Shown: positions 1,355 to 28,879 of the stretch, one piece after another
How positions within the stretch are numbered: position 1 is the first letter of the stretch
How the letters are laid out: every line of letters begins with the position of its first letter
Origin: Patescibacteria group bacterium
GTDB lineage: Bacteria; Patescibacteriota; Doudnabacteria; UBA920
Length of the DNA: 34,857 nt
Reading direction: 5' to 3'
Assembly: GCA_013387205.1 (NCBI GenBank)
Contig: WARV01000016.1
Location: 1 to 34,857 of the forward strand
Position numbers and translations under genes: made by a program
The notes under the pieces: model-generated
Databases searched by the model: none
Seen by the model: the letters and a program-made list of their open reading frames with translations, nothing else
Told to the model about the DNA's origin: nothing

Positions 1355-3091
1355 ATGCGAAAGAGCGAACAGGGCGGGCATATTATTATTTTCACTTTAG
1401 TTTTTTTGGCCGTGATTTTAGTCGCTTCGGTATCTCTTTTAAGCTACACGACTTTGAATTTGCGCGGGGCCAGGACTGCTTACTGGGACAGCCAGGCTTT
1501 GAATTTGGCAGAGGCCGGGATTGACAAAGCAATCTACGAAATTAACCAGAATGGCAACTACAGCGGCGAATCCAATGCCAGTCTGTCAACCGGCGTTTAT
1601 TCTGTTTCGGTTTCTACCATAGACGTCAATAAAAAACAGATTATTGCCACAGGAATGGTGCCCGATGCGTCTGGCTCAAGAGCGCAAAAAACCGTCCAAG
1701 TCACTGCCACTATCAATACTTCCGACGTTTCTTTTAATTCCGGTGTGCAGGTGGGAGAAGGCGGCTTGCAAATGAGTAATGGCTCAAAAGTTATTGGCAA
1801 CGTGTTTGCCAATGGCAGCATAACGGGATCGGGGATTGTTACCGGCGATGTAATTGTGGCTGCCGGAGCTTCCTTGACGGCCAACCAGCAGGCTACCGGC
1901 ACTAACGCGGATTTTTCATTCGCAAGAACATCAGCGGCGCGGGATGCTGCACAAAGCTTTGCCGTTTCTACCACAACCCAAATTACCAAAATCGGCGTGT
2001 ATTTGAAAAAAACCGGTACGCCAAATGATCTGACTGTCAGGATCGTCAGCGATAATGGAGGCAGTCCTTCGCAGAATGTTTTATCCAGCGTGAGCCTGCC
2101 GGCATCTTTAGTTACCAGCAGTTACGGTTTTATTGAGCGCAATTTGACCACGGCTCCGACCTTGTCGGCAGGAGCAACTTACTGGATCGTCCTGTCCAAT
2201 GGCACTTACAGTTCGTCAAAATATTACACTTGGGGTATAGATTCGACTGATTCATACACAAGCGGCCTTGGCAAATACGGCCCCAATTGGAACACGGCCA
2301 GCCCCGCATGGGCTAATGCGGGCGGGGACTTGGCTTTTGAAGTTTTTGTCGGAGGGGTTGTTAATAAGATTGATGGGGTTACTGTCGGCGGAAGCGTGCA
2401 TGCTAACACCATCAATAATTGCGATATAACCAAAGATGCGTATTACCAGGCAATCACTTCATCTACTGTCGGGGGGAATTCTTATCCGAATACGCCTGCT
2501 CCATCGCCGGAAAACATGCCGATATCCGAAGCGCAAATCCAGGAATGGAAAGATACGGCAACTTCTGGCGGAGTAATTTCCGGAAACCATACTATTTTGA
2601 GTTCTGAAACTTTGGGACCAGCAAAAATCAACGGGGACCTGACTTTGACTAACGGAGCGACTTTGGAATTAACCGGGCCATTATGGGTAACCGGCAATGT
2701 TAATATATTAAATAATTCCACGGTCAGGATTGGCACTTCTTTGGGGAATAGCGGTACGGTGCTTTTGTCGGACGGCTTGGTAAACATATCGAACAATTCT
2801 ACGATTGCAGGAAACGGAAACGCAGCCAGTTTTCCTTTGATTATGACTACGTCGAGCAATGGCTCGGCTATGAGCATCCAGAATAATTCTGCCGGTGCGA
2901 TTTATTACGCGCCTTACGGTTATATAAATGTGTCTAACAATGCCGGCGGCAACCAGATTACGGCTTACGGGATAATCATGAATAATAATTCTACCGTGAC
3001 TTATACCAGCGGCTTGCAGAATGCCAATTTTGCCAACGGACCCGGCGGGTCGTGGCAGTTTTTGCCGGGCAGCTATTCAATTTCGCAATGA
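1355..3091 (+). CDS. PilX-like N-terminal anchored surface/pilus-assembly protein with choice-of-anchor-like domain
   Basis: N-terminal TM segment followed by LNLAEAGIDKAIYEI; TTTQITKIGVYLKKTGTPNDLTVRIVSDNGGSPS; polymer-like GN.T..NGS repeats. Confidence 0.7.
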   Translation: MRKSEQGGHIIIFTLVFLAVILVASVSLLSYTTLNLRGARTAYWDSQALNLAEAGIDKAIYEINQNGNYSGESNASLSTGVYSVSVSTIDVNKKQIIATGMVPDASGSRAQKTVQVTATINTSDVSFNSGVQVGEGGLQMSNGSKVIGNVFANGSITGSGIVTGDVIVAAGASLTANQQATGTNADFSFARTSAARDAAQSFAVSTTTQITKIGVYLKKTGTPNDLTVRIVSDNGGSPSQNVLSSVSLPASLVTSSYGFIERNLTTAPTLSAGATYWIVLSNGTYSSSKYYTWGIDSTDSYTSGLGKYGPNWNTASPAWANAGGDLAFEVFVGGVVNKIDGVTVGGSVHANTINNCDITKDAYYQAITSSTVGGNSYPNTPAPSPENMPISEAQIQEWKDTATSGGVISGNHTILSSETLGPAKINGDLTLTNGATLELTGPLWVTGNVNILNNSTVRIGTSLGNSGTVLLSDGLVNISNNSTIAGNGNAASFPLIMTTSSNGSAMSIQNNSAGAIYYAPYGYINVSNNAGGNQITAYGIIMNNNSTVTYTSGLQNANFANGPGGSWQFLPGSYSISQ

Positions 3092-4335
3092 AAAACATCC
3101 AGGACGAGCAAAAGCAGGAACAAGGCCCACATCAGCCAGGCCAGTGCGTTTATTGCGGCAATAACCCGGTGCCGCATTTTATCAATTGGTATAATGAGTC
3201 GCTGAACATTTTGCTGACGCCGTTTAGGCAATTCCTGCTTTACAATCCATTATCGCAAAAAATAAAAAAGTGGTTTTCGCGCGGGAAAATTTCGTTTAAG
3301 ATTTTATCTGCCGCAGAAAAATTTGGGATTGTAAAAAGACAGGACGATGTAACAAAATGCAAAGTCAGGCGGGCGCAGGTGTTGTGGGAAGAAGCAAAAA
3401 AGCGCGGTATAAATTTTTATGAGCTTCTACTGTTTGGCCGGGGTTTTGACACTTATTTGGCGGAAAAAACCGGCAAGGAGAAAATAATTTTTTCCGGGCT
3501 TCCCAGGCCGGATGATTATAACGGAAGCGTTCTTGACGTGATGGATGACAAATGGCTGTTAAAGAAAATTTTAATGGAACACGGCTTGCCCGTGCCGTTT
3601 GGCGGCAGCGCTTGGCGGTTTGGCGAGGCCGCGGCGATCTTTGAAAAGATACAAAAAAATGGCTCGGGCGGGCAGCCGGCTTGTGTGATAGTCAAGCCGC
3701 GGACCGGGAGCCGCGGTCGTCACAGTACGACTTTCATAAAAAACCTGAAAGGTTTAAAGCAGGCTTTCAAAATTGCAAAGAAGCTGAATTTTTGGGCAGT
3801 TGTTGAAGAGCAATTGGACGGCCCGGTTTACCGCGCGACGGTAATCAATAACGAATTGGTTGGGGTACTGCGGGGCGACCCGCCGCAAGTTTCAGGCGAT
3901 GGCGTGTTGAATATTGAACAGTTAGTGAATAAGAAAAATTCACAGCCCCACGAAGGCGTGGCTAATATTTTGATAGACCAAAAAATGGAAATATTTTTGG
4001 AAAAGCAAGGGCTGACGGCTAAATCAGTTCCCAAGGAAGGCGGGCTTGTGAATTTATCTGAAAAAATCGGAGTCAGCTATGGCGGGTCATCCAGCGAAGA
4101 TTTTGACATCTGCCATCCTGAAAACAAGAGCCTGTTCGTCAGGGCCGCCAGGGCGGTAGGCGACCCGATTGTGGGCTTTGATTTTATCATTCCTGACATT
4201 ACCAAGCCTTACAGCCAGCAGCACTGCGGGTTTATTGAAGCCAATTCTTTGCCGTTCATAAATTTGCACCACGATCCCTTAAAAGGCGCCCCGCGCAACG
4301 CCGCTGCCAAAATTTGGGACATGCTCGGTTGGTAA
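3088..4335 (+). CDS. ATP-grasp domain protein (cyanophycin synthetase/D-Ala-D-Ala ligase-like)
   Basis: VIVKPRTGSRGR, AVVEEQLDGPVYRATVINNELVGVLRGDPPQVSGDGVLNIEQLVN; N-terminal CVYCGNNP. The start at 3088 overlaps the upstream stop as ATGA. Confidence 0.75.
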   Translation: MKNIQDEQKQEQGPHQPGQCVYCGNNPVPHFINWYNESLNILLTPFRQFLLYNPLSQKIKKWFSRGKISFKILSAAEKFGIVKRQDDVTKCKVRRAQVLWEEAKKRGINFYELLLFGRGFDTYLAEKTGKEKIIFSGLPRPDDYNGSVLDVMDDKWLLKKILMEHGLPVPFGGSAWRFGEAAAIFEKIQKNGSGGQPACVIVKPRTGSRGRHSTTFIKNLKGLKQAFKIAKKLNFWAVVEEQLDGPVYRATVINNELVGVLRGDPPQVSGDGVLNIEQLVNKKNSQPHEGVANILIDQKMEIFLEKQGLTAKSVPKEGGLVNLSEKIGVSYGGSSSEDFDICHPENKSLFVRAARAVGDPIVGFDFIIPDITKPYSQQHCGFIEANSLPFINLHHDPLKGAPRNAAAKIWDMLGW

Positions 4336-4344
4336 ATATATAAA

Positions 4345-4378
4345 ATTTAAGCATATAAACATTTAAACATGTAAGCAT
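4345..4378. repeat. Left array of degenerate octamer TAARCATN (x4)
   Basis: ATT(TAAGCATA)(TAAACATT)(TAAACATG)(TAAGCAT); inverted and 29/34 identical to 4734-4767. Confidence 0.85.
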
Positions 4379-4741
4379 ATGGGGGATGAAAAATATTTAG
4401 ATAATTTAAAACACAAGATGGACGAATATGTTCACTTAATTTATGCGATAACAAAGAAATTTCCCAAAGACGAATTGTATGGGACCACTTCCCAACTGCG
4501 CCGAGCAACGTTATCTATAATTTTAAATTTCATTGAAGGATATGCAAGAAAAAGGAAGGCGGTAAAAAGGAATTTTTGGGAAATTTCTTTTGGATCATTA
4601 AAGGAGTCAAAGTATTTGGTTTATTTTAGTTTGATTGAAAAGTATATTAGCAAGGAAGATTATGGTAGAGCCATGAAACTTGCGGAAGAAATTGGTGCCA
4701 TGTTGTGGAGAGCATTAGAACCACTCGAAGAAAATGCTTAA
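4379..4741 (+). CDS. Four-helix-bundle protein (S23/IVS-encoded, Avd-like superfamily)
   Basis: LRRATLSIILNFIEGYARKRKAVKRNFWEISFGSLKESKYLVYFSL is characteristic of the S23 IVP four-helix-bundle family. Confidence 0.85.
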   Translation: MGDEKYLDNLKHKMDEYVHLIYAITKKFPKDELYGTTSQLRRATLSIILNFIEGYARKRKAVKRNFWEISFGSLKESKYLVYFSLIEKYISKEDYGRAMKLAEEIGAMLWRALEPLEENA

Positions 4742-4767
4742 ATGTTTGTATGCTTAGATGCTTAAAT
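4734..4767. repeat. Right array of the octamer, inverted relative to the left array
   Basis: ATGCTTAAATGTTTGTATGCTTAGATGCTTAAAT; reverse complement matches 4345-4378 at 29/34 positions. Confidence 0.85.
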
Positions 4768-4768
4768 T

Positions 4769-6049
4769 ATGATAATAAAAAATTTTGAAAAATTGGCCAC
4801 GAGCGTGGTTAGAAGGCATGCGCTGCTTATTGCCGAAGAAGGCTATAAGGCAATCAACACCAAAAAGGCGGTTGGAACAAACGTCTTTTATAATCCGAAA
4901 AACCAGGGGCTGGAAATTTTTGGGGCTAAGTTCAACCTGCAAAAATACCGCAATGTCATTTGTGTGGGTTTTGGCAAAGCAGCAACGGAAGCAGCTAGAG
5001 CGTTAAAGGAAATTTTGGGGGAGAGGATAAACAACGGCGCGGTTATTGGTTTAAAAGAAGAAGATTTGGGGAATATCAAATGTTTTAAAGGTACGCACCC
5101 TTTGCCGAGCGGACAAAACATTGAAGCGTCGGAAAAGCTGATGGAAGCCGTTTCCGGCCTTTCGGAAAACGATTTAGTGATATGCATTGTCAGCGGCGGG
5201 GGAAGCAGCTTGTTCACTTTGCCCTACGATTTGTCCGCTGGGCAGTTTGGCGAGATATTTAAAGTTTTAACTGCCAAGGGCGCGAATATCAAAGAATTAA
5301 ACATTGTCCGCAAGCACTTGGACAAGGTCAAGGGCGGCAATTTAGCCAGGATGATTTATCCGGCTACTTGCGTCAGCTTGATTTTTAGTGATGTTCCAGG
5401 AGACGACTTGAGCGTGGTAGCCAGCGGGCCAACCTTTTTTGACAATACTACCATACATGACGCAGCGAAAATTTTTAAAAAATATGAAATTTTGCAGCAT
5501 TTGGATTTTTTAAAGTGCAATTTCCACGAGACACCCAAGGAAGAAAAATATTTTGAAAGGGTGCGGAACATTTTGGCAGTGTCATCCGCCACGGCTTTAA
5601 AGGCCATGGAAAAATACGCCAGTAATTTGGGATACAAAGCAAAAATCTTTTCCAAACATTTTGAAGGCAGTGCTGCCATACTTGGACCCATGGCTGTATT
5701 GATTAATAAACCGGGGCAGTGTCTGCTTGGCGCTGGAGAAAGCACGGTGAAAATCATTGGAGCAGGAACTGGCGGACGTAACCAGCACATGGCGCTAGCC
5801 GCTTTGCCGAAAATTTCCGAACATCAAGTTTTGTTGTGTTTGGCTTCGGACGGGCATGATAACACTGAGGCTGCGGGGGCAATTATCGATCAGTCTTTAT
5901 TGGAAAGAGCGAAGGCTTTGGGGCTTAATCCAAAAAGTTTTTTGGACAACAACGATAGTTTTAATTTTTTTGGGCAAACTGACGGCTTGGTGTTTACCGG
6001 CCAGACCGGGTCGAATACTGCCGATTTTTTTGTGTGCCTTAAAATGTAA
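4769..6049 (+). CDS. Glycerate 2-kinase (DUF4147/MOFRL family)
   Basis: CIVSGGGSSLFTLP, NIVRKHLDKVKGGNLA, SDVPGDDLSVVASGPT, C-terminal GTGGRNQHMALAAL...ASDGHDNTEAAGA. Confidence 0.9.
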   Translation: MIIKNFEKLATSVVRRHALLIAEEGYKAINTKKAVGTNVFYNPKNQGLEIFGAKFNLQKYRNVICVGFGKAATEAARALKEILGERINNGAVIGLKEEDLGNIKCFKGTHPLPSGQNIEASEKLMEAVSGLSENDLVICIVSGGGSSLFTLPYDLSAGQFGEIFKVLTAKGANIKELNIVRKHLDKVKGGNLARMIYPATCVSLIFSDVPGDDLSVVASGPTFFDNTTIHDAAKIFKKYEILQHLDFLKCNFHETPKEEKYFERVRNILAVSSATALKAMEKYASNLGYKAKIFSKHFEGSAAILGPMAVLINKPGQCLLGAGESTVKIIGAGTGGRNQHMALAALPKISEHQVLLCLASDGHDNTEAAGAIIDQSLLERAKALGLNPKSFLDNNDSFNFFGQTDGLVFTGQTGSNTADFFVCLKM

Positions 6050-7284: not shown

Positions 7285-7448
7285 AAAATCAAAGTGTAAA
7301 ATGACAGTTAAAAACGATAATCAGTTATTTCTTACACAGTTGTCGTCCCGAGTGCTGCCGAGGAATCCCTCTCCGCCTTCGGCGGATCGGGACGGCATGA
7401 ATGCCGTTTTGCATTGTCATTTTTCATTTTGATATTTGCATTTTAATT
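7285..7448. repeat. Composite element: AT-rich inverted repeats surrounding nested GC-rich hairpins
   Basis: AAATCAAAGTGTAAAATGACAGTTAAAA matches the inverse of TTTTGCATTGTCATTTTTCATTTTGAT; inner hairpins CGTCCCGA/TCGGGACG (7344-7351/7387-7394), TCCGCCttcGGCGGA (7372-7386), ACGGCAT-GA-ATGCCGT (7392-7407). Confidence 0.7.
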
Positions 7449-25713: not shown

Positions 25714-25856
25714 TTCTAAATTCTACTAAATACTAAAAGGTACTAAACATACTAAATATCATCAACCAAGCTTTATTGATACCATTATTGGTATATGGCT
25801 TTAGTACCTTTCGTATATATTAGTATTTAGTAGAAGTACATTGGTATTTAGTAGAA
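25714..25856. repeat. Inverted pair of degenerate tandem repeats (unit ~TACTAAAT)
   Basis: TCTACTAAATACTAAAAGGTACTAAACATACTAAATA and, inverted, TTTAGTACCTTTCGTATATATTAGTATTTAGTAGAAGTACATTGGTATTTAGTAGAA; central ATACCA-TTA-TTGGTAT hairpin. Confidence 0.8.
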
Positions 25857-26387: not shown

Positions 26388-26525
26388 AAATTAACCTAAT
26401 TGACCTAATTGTTCCTAATTTCCGCCAGCTGGCGGACTAAAAAAATCCCAATGACTAAATATCAGAAACTAGGTAATTGGGGAATTAGACATTATTTAGT
26501 CAATTAGAGTAATTAGAATAATTTA
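26388..26525. repeat. Inverted pair of degenerate ~9-bp repeats (CTAATTNAC / TTAGNNTAA) around a 16-bp palindrome
   Basis: TTAACCTAATTGACCTAATTGTTCCTAATT and AATTAGACATTATTTAGTCAATTAGAGTAATTAGAATAATTTAG; palindrome TCCGCCAGCTGGCGGA 26421-26436. Confidence 0.8.
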
Positions 26526-28355
26526 GTTAGCTTTTGCCCAAAAGATTATCTGGCCGGATTGCTTGCCTGAGGGAAGGGCCACGTTTTTTGGGACGGTCAG
26601 CTTTAAAGTTTCATTCTTCTGTTCGTCCTGGGCAAAAGTGTCCTTAAAGTTCTTCCAGGTTGCGCCGGAAATTTGCATGCTGTCTTTGAAAATCCCGTTT
26701 CCGTTTATTACAGCCTGCACGGTTATGCCTGTTGTGCCATGGTTTTTAATGGTAATGTCCTTAGAAGCAGAATCTCCTGCCGCAAGGGAGCCAAAATCCA
26801 AGTTAGTCGGGCTAACAGTAAAAGAAATGCTGCTTTGCTGGGTCGTGGTGGAATCGCCATCGACTAATCCTGTCGGTAAGGTGACGGATAAATCAACTGA
26901 ATTCGACGATGGTTGTCCTACCTTTAGCATAGACGTGTTGCTTCTTATGTAGCCTTCCTTCTGGGAATAGACTTTGTAATAGCCATCAGCAGGGGAAAGT
27001 GATGCTTGTCCCTGGCTGTCTGTCTTAGAAGAATCTACGCCATAAATTACATTGGCGTCGGGAAGCTGGTTCCAGTTGCCGTTTTCGTAATATTCCACGG
27101 AAGCGGTCGCGCTGCCGCCGGTAGTGACTTCGCTTGGATTTAAGCTGAGCCTGGTTGGTTTCCAACCGCCGTATTCACCGAAATACCAAATAACCGAATC
27201 ACCAGACTTTAACTGGTAATCACCTGCGCCAACATTGAGCGATTCGTTGTTTACTAGGTACATCCAACCATTCAGGCCGCTTCCAATGTCGTTATTAATT
27301 TTGTTCAAATAAAGTCCGATGTTTGTGGATTTTACTTCATAAGTAAAGCCGCATGATATAGCTGCATTTTTTACTAAATCCATAGCGGTTGGCCCTGCTG
27401 CTTCTCCGCTGCAAACTGTTTCAGTCGATCCTTCTATTCTAAATGGGAATTTTTGAAGGATAATTTGCCCAGGCTTAACAGGTAAAAATTTACCGGCAAG
27501 GGCAATGACAGCTTCTGCGGTAGTTTTTGGAGCTGTACTGTCATCAATACTTGAACTCTGGTACTTGAAGTATCCTTCTGTTGCTTGGTAACTCTCTAAG
27601 AAAGATTTTGGCGTGTTACTGCCCTTGTTCCAGGTTGAGGAATTTATTCCCAAAGAATTTAAAGCCCACATGACCCAAGCGGTGGAAGAGGAGTCTGAAT
27701 CTTTACCCCATGAGGTGGTTGGGTCATATGCAAAACCACCGTCGTCATTCTGTGTGGTCTTTAAATAATTTAGAGCGTTTTGTATATGAGTGTCATTTTT
27801 ATCAGTTCCCGCTGCAACCAAAGACAAGATTGCAGCCGAAGTCATGTTGCTGTCAGAACCGCCTGAGGTTAAGTAGCCCCATCCACCGTTGGAATTTTGG
27901 TGAGAAAGGATAAAATTTTTGGTACCTGAGACAACCGAGTCGCTTGTTGGCTCGTCAGCTGCAGTAAGAGCGAGTAATCCGAAAATGTCATCATTAATAG
28001 TAGTAGGGTCGCCGAGCTGGCCGTCATGATAATAATTTTTTAGAACAGTGACGTAATCTGTGGTGCCAAAAGTTTTTGGGTTTTGGCCAATAGCCGATAT
28101 TGCAAGCATTGGAGCCTCGTAGTCAATAGCAGATGTTCCGGAAATATTTTTTAAGTAATCTGTCTGGATGTTGCTTGCACCAGTTGCTGCCAGCGCCATA
28201 GTGACCCAAGGGCTGGTTTGGTGTGCCAACAAATAGTCCTGTGCAGTAGTTGAATTGTAAGTAGCCTTGGTGGTGAGAGGGGAGAGAAGGGAGGATATGG
28301 CGAGCATCACAACTAACAAAGCTGTTTGAAATTTGTGGATTGATTTTTTTAACAT
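26523..28355 (-). CDS. Secreted alpha/alpha-barrel (prenyltransferase/squalene-oxidase-repeat, intrinsic-factor-like) + DUF4430/transcobalamin-C-like protein
   Basis: NSNGGWGYLTSGGSDSNMTSAAILSLVAAG...NDDGGFAYDPTTSWGKDSDSSSTAWVMWAL; SGLNGWMYLVNNESLNVGAGDYQLKSGDSVIWYFGEYGGW; C-terminal choice-of-anchor-like LDFGSLAAGDSASKDITIKNHG. Confidence 0.8.
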   Translation of the reverse strand: MLKKSIHKFQTALLVVMLAISSLLSPLTTKATYNSTTAQDYLLAHQTSPWVTMALAATGASNIQTDYLKNISGTSAIDYEAPMLAISAIGQNPKTFGTTDYVTVLKNYYHDGQLGDPTTINDDIFGLLALTAADEPTSDSVVSGTKNFILSHQNSNGGWGYLTSGGSDSNMTSAAILSLVAAGTDKNDTHIQNALNYLKTTQNDDGGFAYDPTTSWGKDSDSSSTAWVMWALNSLGINSSTWNKGSNTPKSFLESYQATEGYFKYQSSSIDDSTAPKTTAEAVIALAGKFLPVKPGQIILQKFPFRIEGSTETVCSGEAAGPTAMDLVKNAAISCGFTYEVKSTNIGLYLNKINNDIGSGLNGWMYLVNNESLNVGAGDYQLKSGDSVIWYFGEYGGWKPTRLSLNPSEVTTGGSATASVEYYENGNWNQLPDANVIYGVDSSKTDSQGQASLSPADGYYKVYSQKEGYIRSNTSMLKVGQPSSNSVDLSVTLPTGLVDGDSTTTQQSSISFTVSPTNLDFGSLAAGDSASKDITIKNHGTTGITVQAVINGNGIFKDSMQISGATWKNFKDTFAQDEQKNETLKLTVPKNVALPSGKQSGQIIFWAKAN

Positions 28356-28788: not shown

Positions 28789-28879
28789 AATTGTAAATCA
28801 CAATTAACGATTTACAATTAACAATTGACTTTGTTCGATACCGTTAATGGTCAATCGTTAATTGTTAATTGTGGTCAAC
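28789..28879. repeat. Inverted pair of degenerate repeats (CAATTAACGATT-type)
   Basis: CACAATTAACGATTTACAATTAACAATTGAC vs the inverse of GGTCAATCGTTAATTGTTAATTGTGGTCAAC. Confidence 0.75.

Follow-up and report, generated by a model that had tools for sequence, protein, structure and literature searches.

Inverted tandem arrays around an S23/IVP four-helix-bundle ORF in a Doudnabacteria genome: a probable copy of a widespread small mobile element

The window analysed here, a stretch of 34,857 nucleotides from contig WARV01000016.1 (assembly GCA_013387205.1, a Patescibacteria group bacterium of the Doudnabacteria), contains a small ORF that is held between two inverted arrays of a degenerate octamer and is situated between two protein-coding genes, outside any rRNA gene. 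The features of the locus, and one likely relative of it elsewhere in the window, are as follows.

3052..4335, + strand: upstream host gene, conserved, with a C-terminal end (...AAKIWDMLGW) that can be recognised in relatives at the orthologous junction
4336..4768, + strand: entire inserted element, approximate outer limits, spanning from the upstream stop codon to the next start codon
4345..4378, + strand: left array, four degenerate TAARCATN octamers abutting the ORF's ATG
4379..4741, + strand: S23/IVP four-helix-bundle ORF, 120 aa, identified by PF05635, TIGR02436, AlphaFold2 and Foldseek
4734..4767, − strand: right array, the inverse of the left array, containing the ORF's stop codon
4769..6049, + strand: downstream host gene, glycerate kinase, identified by its DUF4147 and MOFRL domain matches
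26388..26528, no strand assigned: likely ORF-less relative, an intergenic TAATTNNYC-type hairpin whose unit is that of the IVP element L015 on contig C20

The left array reads ATT TAAGCATA TAAACATT TAAACATG TAAGCAT and is followed directly by the ATG at 4379. An inverted-repeat search places the two arms at 4344-4378 and 4734-4768, where they are 35 nt long and 86% complementary; the stop codon of the ORF (TAA, 4739-4741) is located inside the right array, and a single base, 4768, separates this array from the ATG of the glycerate kinase at 4769. The inverted octamer arrays that the initial annotation had placed around the ORF were thus recovered with their coordinates, their complementarity and the stop codon within the right one. 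When the element is folded as RNA (z=-4.1), the arms pair as a terminal stem. The upstream host gene has no match in Pfam, the window none in Rfam, and no transposase, nuclease or polymerase domain was found in the element.

Structures of S23/IVP proteins have been solved since 2006, and we know of no function assigned to them; their genes are commonly annotated as "four helix bundle protein". The window protein matches PF05635 (E=7.8e-25, 87.6 bits against a curated cut-off of 33.8) and TIGR02436 (23S_rRNA_IVP; E=5e-23, 81.4 bits against a cut-off of 24), and its AlphaFold2 monomer model consists of four helices with a pLDDT of 95.8, so that the four-helix-bundle identity first read from the letters alone is borne out by profiles and fold alike. 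The nearest structures in Foldseek are 2GSC (XCC0516; TM 0.86-0.88 to the model) and 2RLD (BT_0352), followed by the DGR protein Avd (4DWL). XCC0516 has been described as a pentamer (PMC4990558), and by analogy with the solved relatives the S23/IVP protein is probably a pentamer as well. The likeness to DGR Avd and bAvd is confined to the four-helix fold and a weak profile match: the window protein scores 36.2 bits on the Avd equivalog profile, below its cut-off of 80, and no RT gene lies beside it, those of this genome being on contigs C12 and C2 and the window on C8.

To measure how closely such arrays are tied to the ORF, a flank score was used that compares the upstream flank with the reverse complement of the same ORF's downstream flank, with flanks paired across genomes as the control. 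The window ORF scores 22.5, against a median of 9 among 228 other ORFs of 90-350 aa from a 428-kb sample of the same genome, 2.6% of which reach 18. This genome (1.30 Mb, 24 contigs) contains five PF05635 ORFs, and all five bear inverted tandem arrays, with a different unit at each: TAARCATN in the window, approximately CTTAGTNC, TAAGATNT, AATTGACAN and TAATTNNYC. In the bacterium's family, 91 PF05635 ORFs were collected from 17 of 22 genomes; the median score is 16.25 for own pairs and 8.5 for cross-paired flanks, and 77 of 88 ORFs exceed the 95th percentile of the cross-paired control. A score of at least 14 is reached by 79% of 87 family IVP ORFs and by 3.5% of the other ORFs of the window's genome, while about 20% of IVP ORFs lack arms under the score used. 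Two of the lowest scorers, L096 (7.0) and L099 (8.0), adjoin RTs and are true DGR Avd genes by NCBIfam; they form an internal negative control, true Avd genes without arrays.

The same arrangement extends far beyond the family. PF05635 proteins are present in 85 of the 145 genomes of a phylum sample, and the control's 95th percentile is exceeded at 27 of 30 loci from this sample and, among 80 named loci taken from one genome per species, at 13 of 17 in CPR and 51 of 61 in other phyla, including Planctomycetota, Clostridia, Bacteroidota, Acidobacteriota, Proteobacteria, Nostoc and one Methanophagales archaeon. Inverted arrays were found at about 72% of 60 PF05635 ORFs outside CPR. Eight non-CPR genomes searched in their entirety have 2-11 PF05635 matches each, and the arms score at least 14 in 24 of 30 tested ORFs, with a unit that mostly differs from ORF to ORF. 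A period of 7 (or 14) is the commonest, followed by 8 and 9, and no shuffled arms pass the threshold. Flanking inverted arrays, which the initial annotation had proposed to look for at homologous ORFs, therefore occur both within CPR and far outside it. Its view of the array as a feature of the window holds, but the octamer is the unit of the window copy only, others having 7-9 nt; likewise, the combination of ORF and arrays is real, but it is typical of the S23/IVP family at large and not peculiar to this locus. The breadth of this pattern bears on the simplest alternative, in which AT-rich intergenic DNA and repeats grown by slippage came to flank a small gene by accident. Intergenic palindromes are indeed common in this genome and slippage can grow short tandem arrays, but such flanks accompany only 3.5% of other ORFs, the cross-paired and shuffled controls contradict chance, and the trait recurs, as paired arrays, in distant phyla of high GC; we regard accident or convergence as extremely improbable.

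Arrays of the window's unit are also found without an ORF. Runs of three tandem TAARCATN octamers occur at 8 overlapping places, corresponding to five loci, in the whole genome, and the reversed pattern at none. Compact ORF-less TAARCATN hairpins fill the four other gaps, which we take, from translations read by eye, to lie at rplK, yebC|ruvC, rplT/rpmI and rpsK|rpsD. The units of the other IVP elements were searched in one third of the genome, with reversed units as the control: that of L014 occurs at 20 other places, 14 of them hairpins (control 2 and 0), and that of L015 at 13, nine of them hairpins (control 0); the unit of L013 (12 against 7) is close to background, and that of L011 has no ORF-less copies against 2 in the control. 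In the 428-kb sample there are 152 short-loop inverted repeats, 136 of them intergenic, where shuffles give 3, although many of the 152 are terminators or other palindromes and not array hairpins.

Comparison of orthologous junctions in relatives reveals occupied and empty forms. Glycerate kinase orthologues are present in 18 of the 22 genomes of the family, and the junction between the upstream gene and the glycerate kinase measures 5 nt in G012, 10 nt in G014 and 19 nt in G010, whilst G006 carries an ORF-less hairpin of a different unit there. The locus is thus not invariant, and empty sites, the absence of which would have spoken against the insertion first proposed, do exist. The yebC|ruvC gap is empty in four genomes and holds an IVP element in two; in seven, including the window's own, ORF-less array hairpins of differing units occupy it, and in the remainder other DNA. 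A further observation concerns the gap 3' of a lexA-like gene, a recurrent insertion site in which IVP elements with different units are found in four genomes (L089, L040, L049 and L038).

In cyanobacterial plasmids that are 97-98% identical, the insertion is clean to the base. Plasmid site 1 reads AAAAAGTAATTAACAAATAAATATG when empty (N. linckia, N. carneum) and AAAAAG-TAA-element-TAA-TTAACAAATAAATATG when loaded (Trichormus, Scytonema); Brasilonema has an ORF-less hairpin with the unit of the loaded form, and Nostoc C052 a relic with a truncated ORF. Site 2 takes three forms on three plasmids of Nostoc sp. ATCC 53789, one loaded between A and B, one loaded between B and C and one empty, and the B|C element differs from the A|B element in both unit and protein. 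Loaded and ORF-less forms were found at site 3, and loaded and empty forms at site 4. An alignment of the site 1 and site 2 elements shows homology starting and stopping at the outer edges of the arrays. Direct repeats of 3 bp at the element edges (TAA, ATG and CTA, at three plasmid sites, CTA being imperfect) may point to a target duplication; the window element's relatives are too diverged for its own edges to be read in this way. Together, the empty junctions of relatives and the base-level empty plasmid sites of sister elements uphold the initial proposal of an insertion between two protein-coding genes, and the mobility of paired-array elements is well supported. A search of phage records with the IVP query gave no match, so carriage by phages is unsupported. 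On the cyanobacterial plasmids L271 and L277, S23/IVP elements with heptamer arms are situated between cas6 and cas4 of CRISPR operons, of type I-D in L277, and such insertions may explain the 'CRISPR-associated' 23S rRNA IVP calls of guilt-by-association screens.

The polymorphism of these sites is what led us to drop regulation as the main explanation. A regulatory cassette, in which the protein acts as a regulator through arrays that serve, whether or not they enclose an ORF, as operators or RNA control sites before ribosomal and other genes, would account for the three of four ORF-less TAARCATN hairpins that lie among ribosomal protein genes, for arrays adjoining start codons and for the match between protein and unit. 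The same junctions, however, are empty or hold unrelated units in relatives, several proteins with differing units coexist in one genome, and the neighbours are random, with conjugation genes, cas6|cas4 and sufA|sufB among those on plasmids; a regulatory cassette is accordingly very unlikely.

The protein and its array unit are matched. Across 81 ORFs from unrelated sites, array similarity rises with protein identity (Mantel rho 0.17, p=0.001), a correlation that is weak over all pairs; among pairs with at least 60% protein identity, 49% have a unit in common, against 5% in an opposite-strand control. The same unit thus accompanies similar proteins at unrelated sites, and the nearest relatives of the window protein (69% identity), in G007 and G004, have the related array cores TGATCATT and TAAACANN. 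The S23/IVP protein probably recognises, by binding, its own array.

This matching also weighs on the possibility that the array hairpins are separate repeats, spread by other machinery (REP-like with Y1, or copied by an RT), with the IVP ORF as a passenger or an Avd-like accessory in their loops. ORF-less hairpins are more numerous than ORF-bearing ones, for several hairpin families the genome contains no cognate IVP, Y1 genes are present in 14 and RT genes in 10 of the 22 family genomes, and Avd has the same fold as the IVP protein, all of which fit such repeats. Against them, such arrays are a feature of IVP ORFs and not of ORFs at large, the unit changes with the protein from site to site, and ORF and arms move together as one. 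RT is absent from G006, G014 and G018, and Y1 from the IVP-bearing G003, G004, G005 and G008 (drafts being among the 22 genomes); G008, rated 100% complete, contains two IVP elements and has no RT match and no Y1 match. We therefore consider separate repeats unlikely, and IVP genomes without either gene weaken the case for an RT or a Y1 transposase as an obligatory partner.

The window locus is best interpreted, with a probability of roughly 0.7, as one copy of a widespread kind of small mobile element in which an S23/IVP gene is carried between paired arrays. A typical copy is about 430 nt long and consists of 3-5 degenerate units of 7-9 nt, a sense ORF and the inverse array. Of 84 IVP ORFs, 72 share the orientation of both flanking genes and one opposes both; left arms tend to be rich in purines, and 45% of them have stops in all three frames, against 16% of shuffled arms. 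The sense orientation and the left-arm stops fit an element that enters at stop/start junctions and relies on read-through for its expression, and either an insertion preference or selection could have produced them. The element would insert at, or just 3' of, a stop codon in the sense of the host operon, its left-array stop codons would terminate upstream translation, and its ORF would be expressed through read-through. In the RNA, the arms would pair and allow the host message to be processed around the inserted element, in the manner of RNase III on the intervening sequences (IVSs) of 23S rRNA. The presumed pentamer would bind its own unit and aid the copying or insertion of the element in cis, a recognition that would keep protein and ends together; it may also act in trans on ORF-less array hairpins, which would explain the ORF-less cognates. 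The cutting and joining of DNA would call for a host enzyme or some activity not yet described, since several IVP genomes lack RT, several lack Y1 and G008 lacks both.

IVSs of 23S rRNA with an S23p ORF, inverted ends and RNase III processing are known from Leptospira, Coxiella and Brucella. The window element resembles them in carrying a gene of the same protein family in the loop between its inverted ends and in being of similar size, but it and its like lie between protein genes, occur in many copies with different units per genome, have arrays in both arms and are accompanied by ORF-less copies of the same unit. Since it lies outside rRNA, the window locus is classed as an intergenic multi-copy IVS variant and not as a 23S IVS, and the best reading is that paired-array elements are kin of the 23S rRNA IVS elements. 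The Coxiella IVS is 428-444 nt long and has tandem heptamers (GACAGAT) in variable number directly 5' of the S23p ATG; its S23p is apparently untranslated, a point against the explanation preferred here (PMC4990558). In CPR, insertions in 16S and 23S rRNA contain IVP ORFs (PMC11270868). In the open-access literature, which includes few subscription journals or preprints, no paper was found that joins S23 ORFs, arrays and mobility, the Coxiella heptamers being the sole fragment. S23 ORFs within rRNA IVSs with inverted ends are thus known, and what appears to be new is the intergenic, multi-copy, paired-array S23/IVP element.

Short intergenic tandem repeats have, to our knowledge, no known maker. 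REP/BIME-RAYT (Y1) systems and MITEs likewise consist of short palindromes between genes, some coding and others non-coding within a single genome; they differ in that the ends described here are tandem 7-9-nt arrays with copy-specific units and the protein is unrelated to Y1. Intergenic 7-nt arrays are also shared with the STRR of cyanobacteria, GGGAATC of Xanthomonas and GGGGA(C/T)T of Nostoc, and the IVP elements of Nostocales have heptamer arms such as GGGAACA, AGGTGAC and GAGTCAG; the literature, however, treats those heptanucleotides as repeats of unknown origin and not as ends of S23 elements. The Xanthomonas GGGAATC heptamers are intergenic and sometimes form paired inverted repeats, for which no cause was given (PMC4692102). 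The unexplained heptamers between genes of Xanthomonas and Nostoc may be paired-array elements as well. For the broader proposal, that PF05635 genes generally code for unrecognised pan-bacterial mobile elements reading their own 7-9-nt arrays and that the unexplained heptamer and octamer repeats found in CPR, cyanobacteria and xanthomonads stem in large part from their ORF-less derivatives, we see the balance as about even. Pairing the protein with its own array would supply both a function for S23/IVP proteins and an origin for intergenic repeats, and it adds an Avd-fold family with no recognisable nuclease to the possible agents of change at bacterial gene junctions. It also suggests that DGR Avd was recruited from paired-array elements or shares a common ancestor with them.

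Other intergenic repeats were seen in the window and elsewhere in its genome. At 7285-7445 of the window, an array-type hairpin (AAATCAAAGTGTAAAATGACAG ... CATTGTCATTTTTCATTTTGAT) encloses in its loop a second repeat (TCGTCCCGAG...GGAATCCC), and a similar repeat occupies yebC|ruvC in G013. At 28800-28865 there is an intergenic hairpin with 7-nt units of the ACAATTAAC type. A family of intergenic TCTACTAAATACTAA... hairpins of about 113 nt has at least five copies in the sample (window 25721-25835; L159:189, L156:12012, L150:19260, L143:14059), and no coding partner is known for it. The genome sample L141-L160 contains many perfect loop-less intergenic palindromes of 36-58 nt, with cores such as TTTGACGGCCGTCAAA, which are probably bidirectional terminators. 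Finally, three ORFs of about 116-121 aa with the DUF559 domain, which has a Vsr-like endonuclease fold (L148:1120-1470, L146:18315-18665 and L152:13369-13734; flank scores 36, 19 and 16), have strong inverted flanks of another kind in the same genome and may represent a second family of small elements bounded by palindromes.
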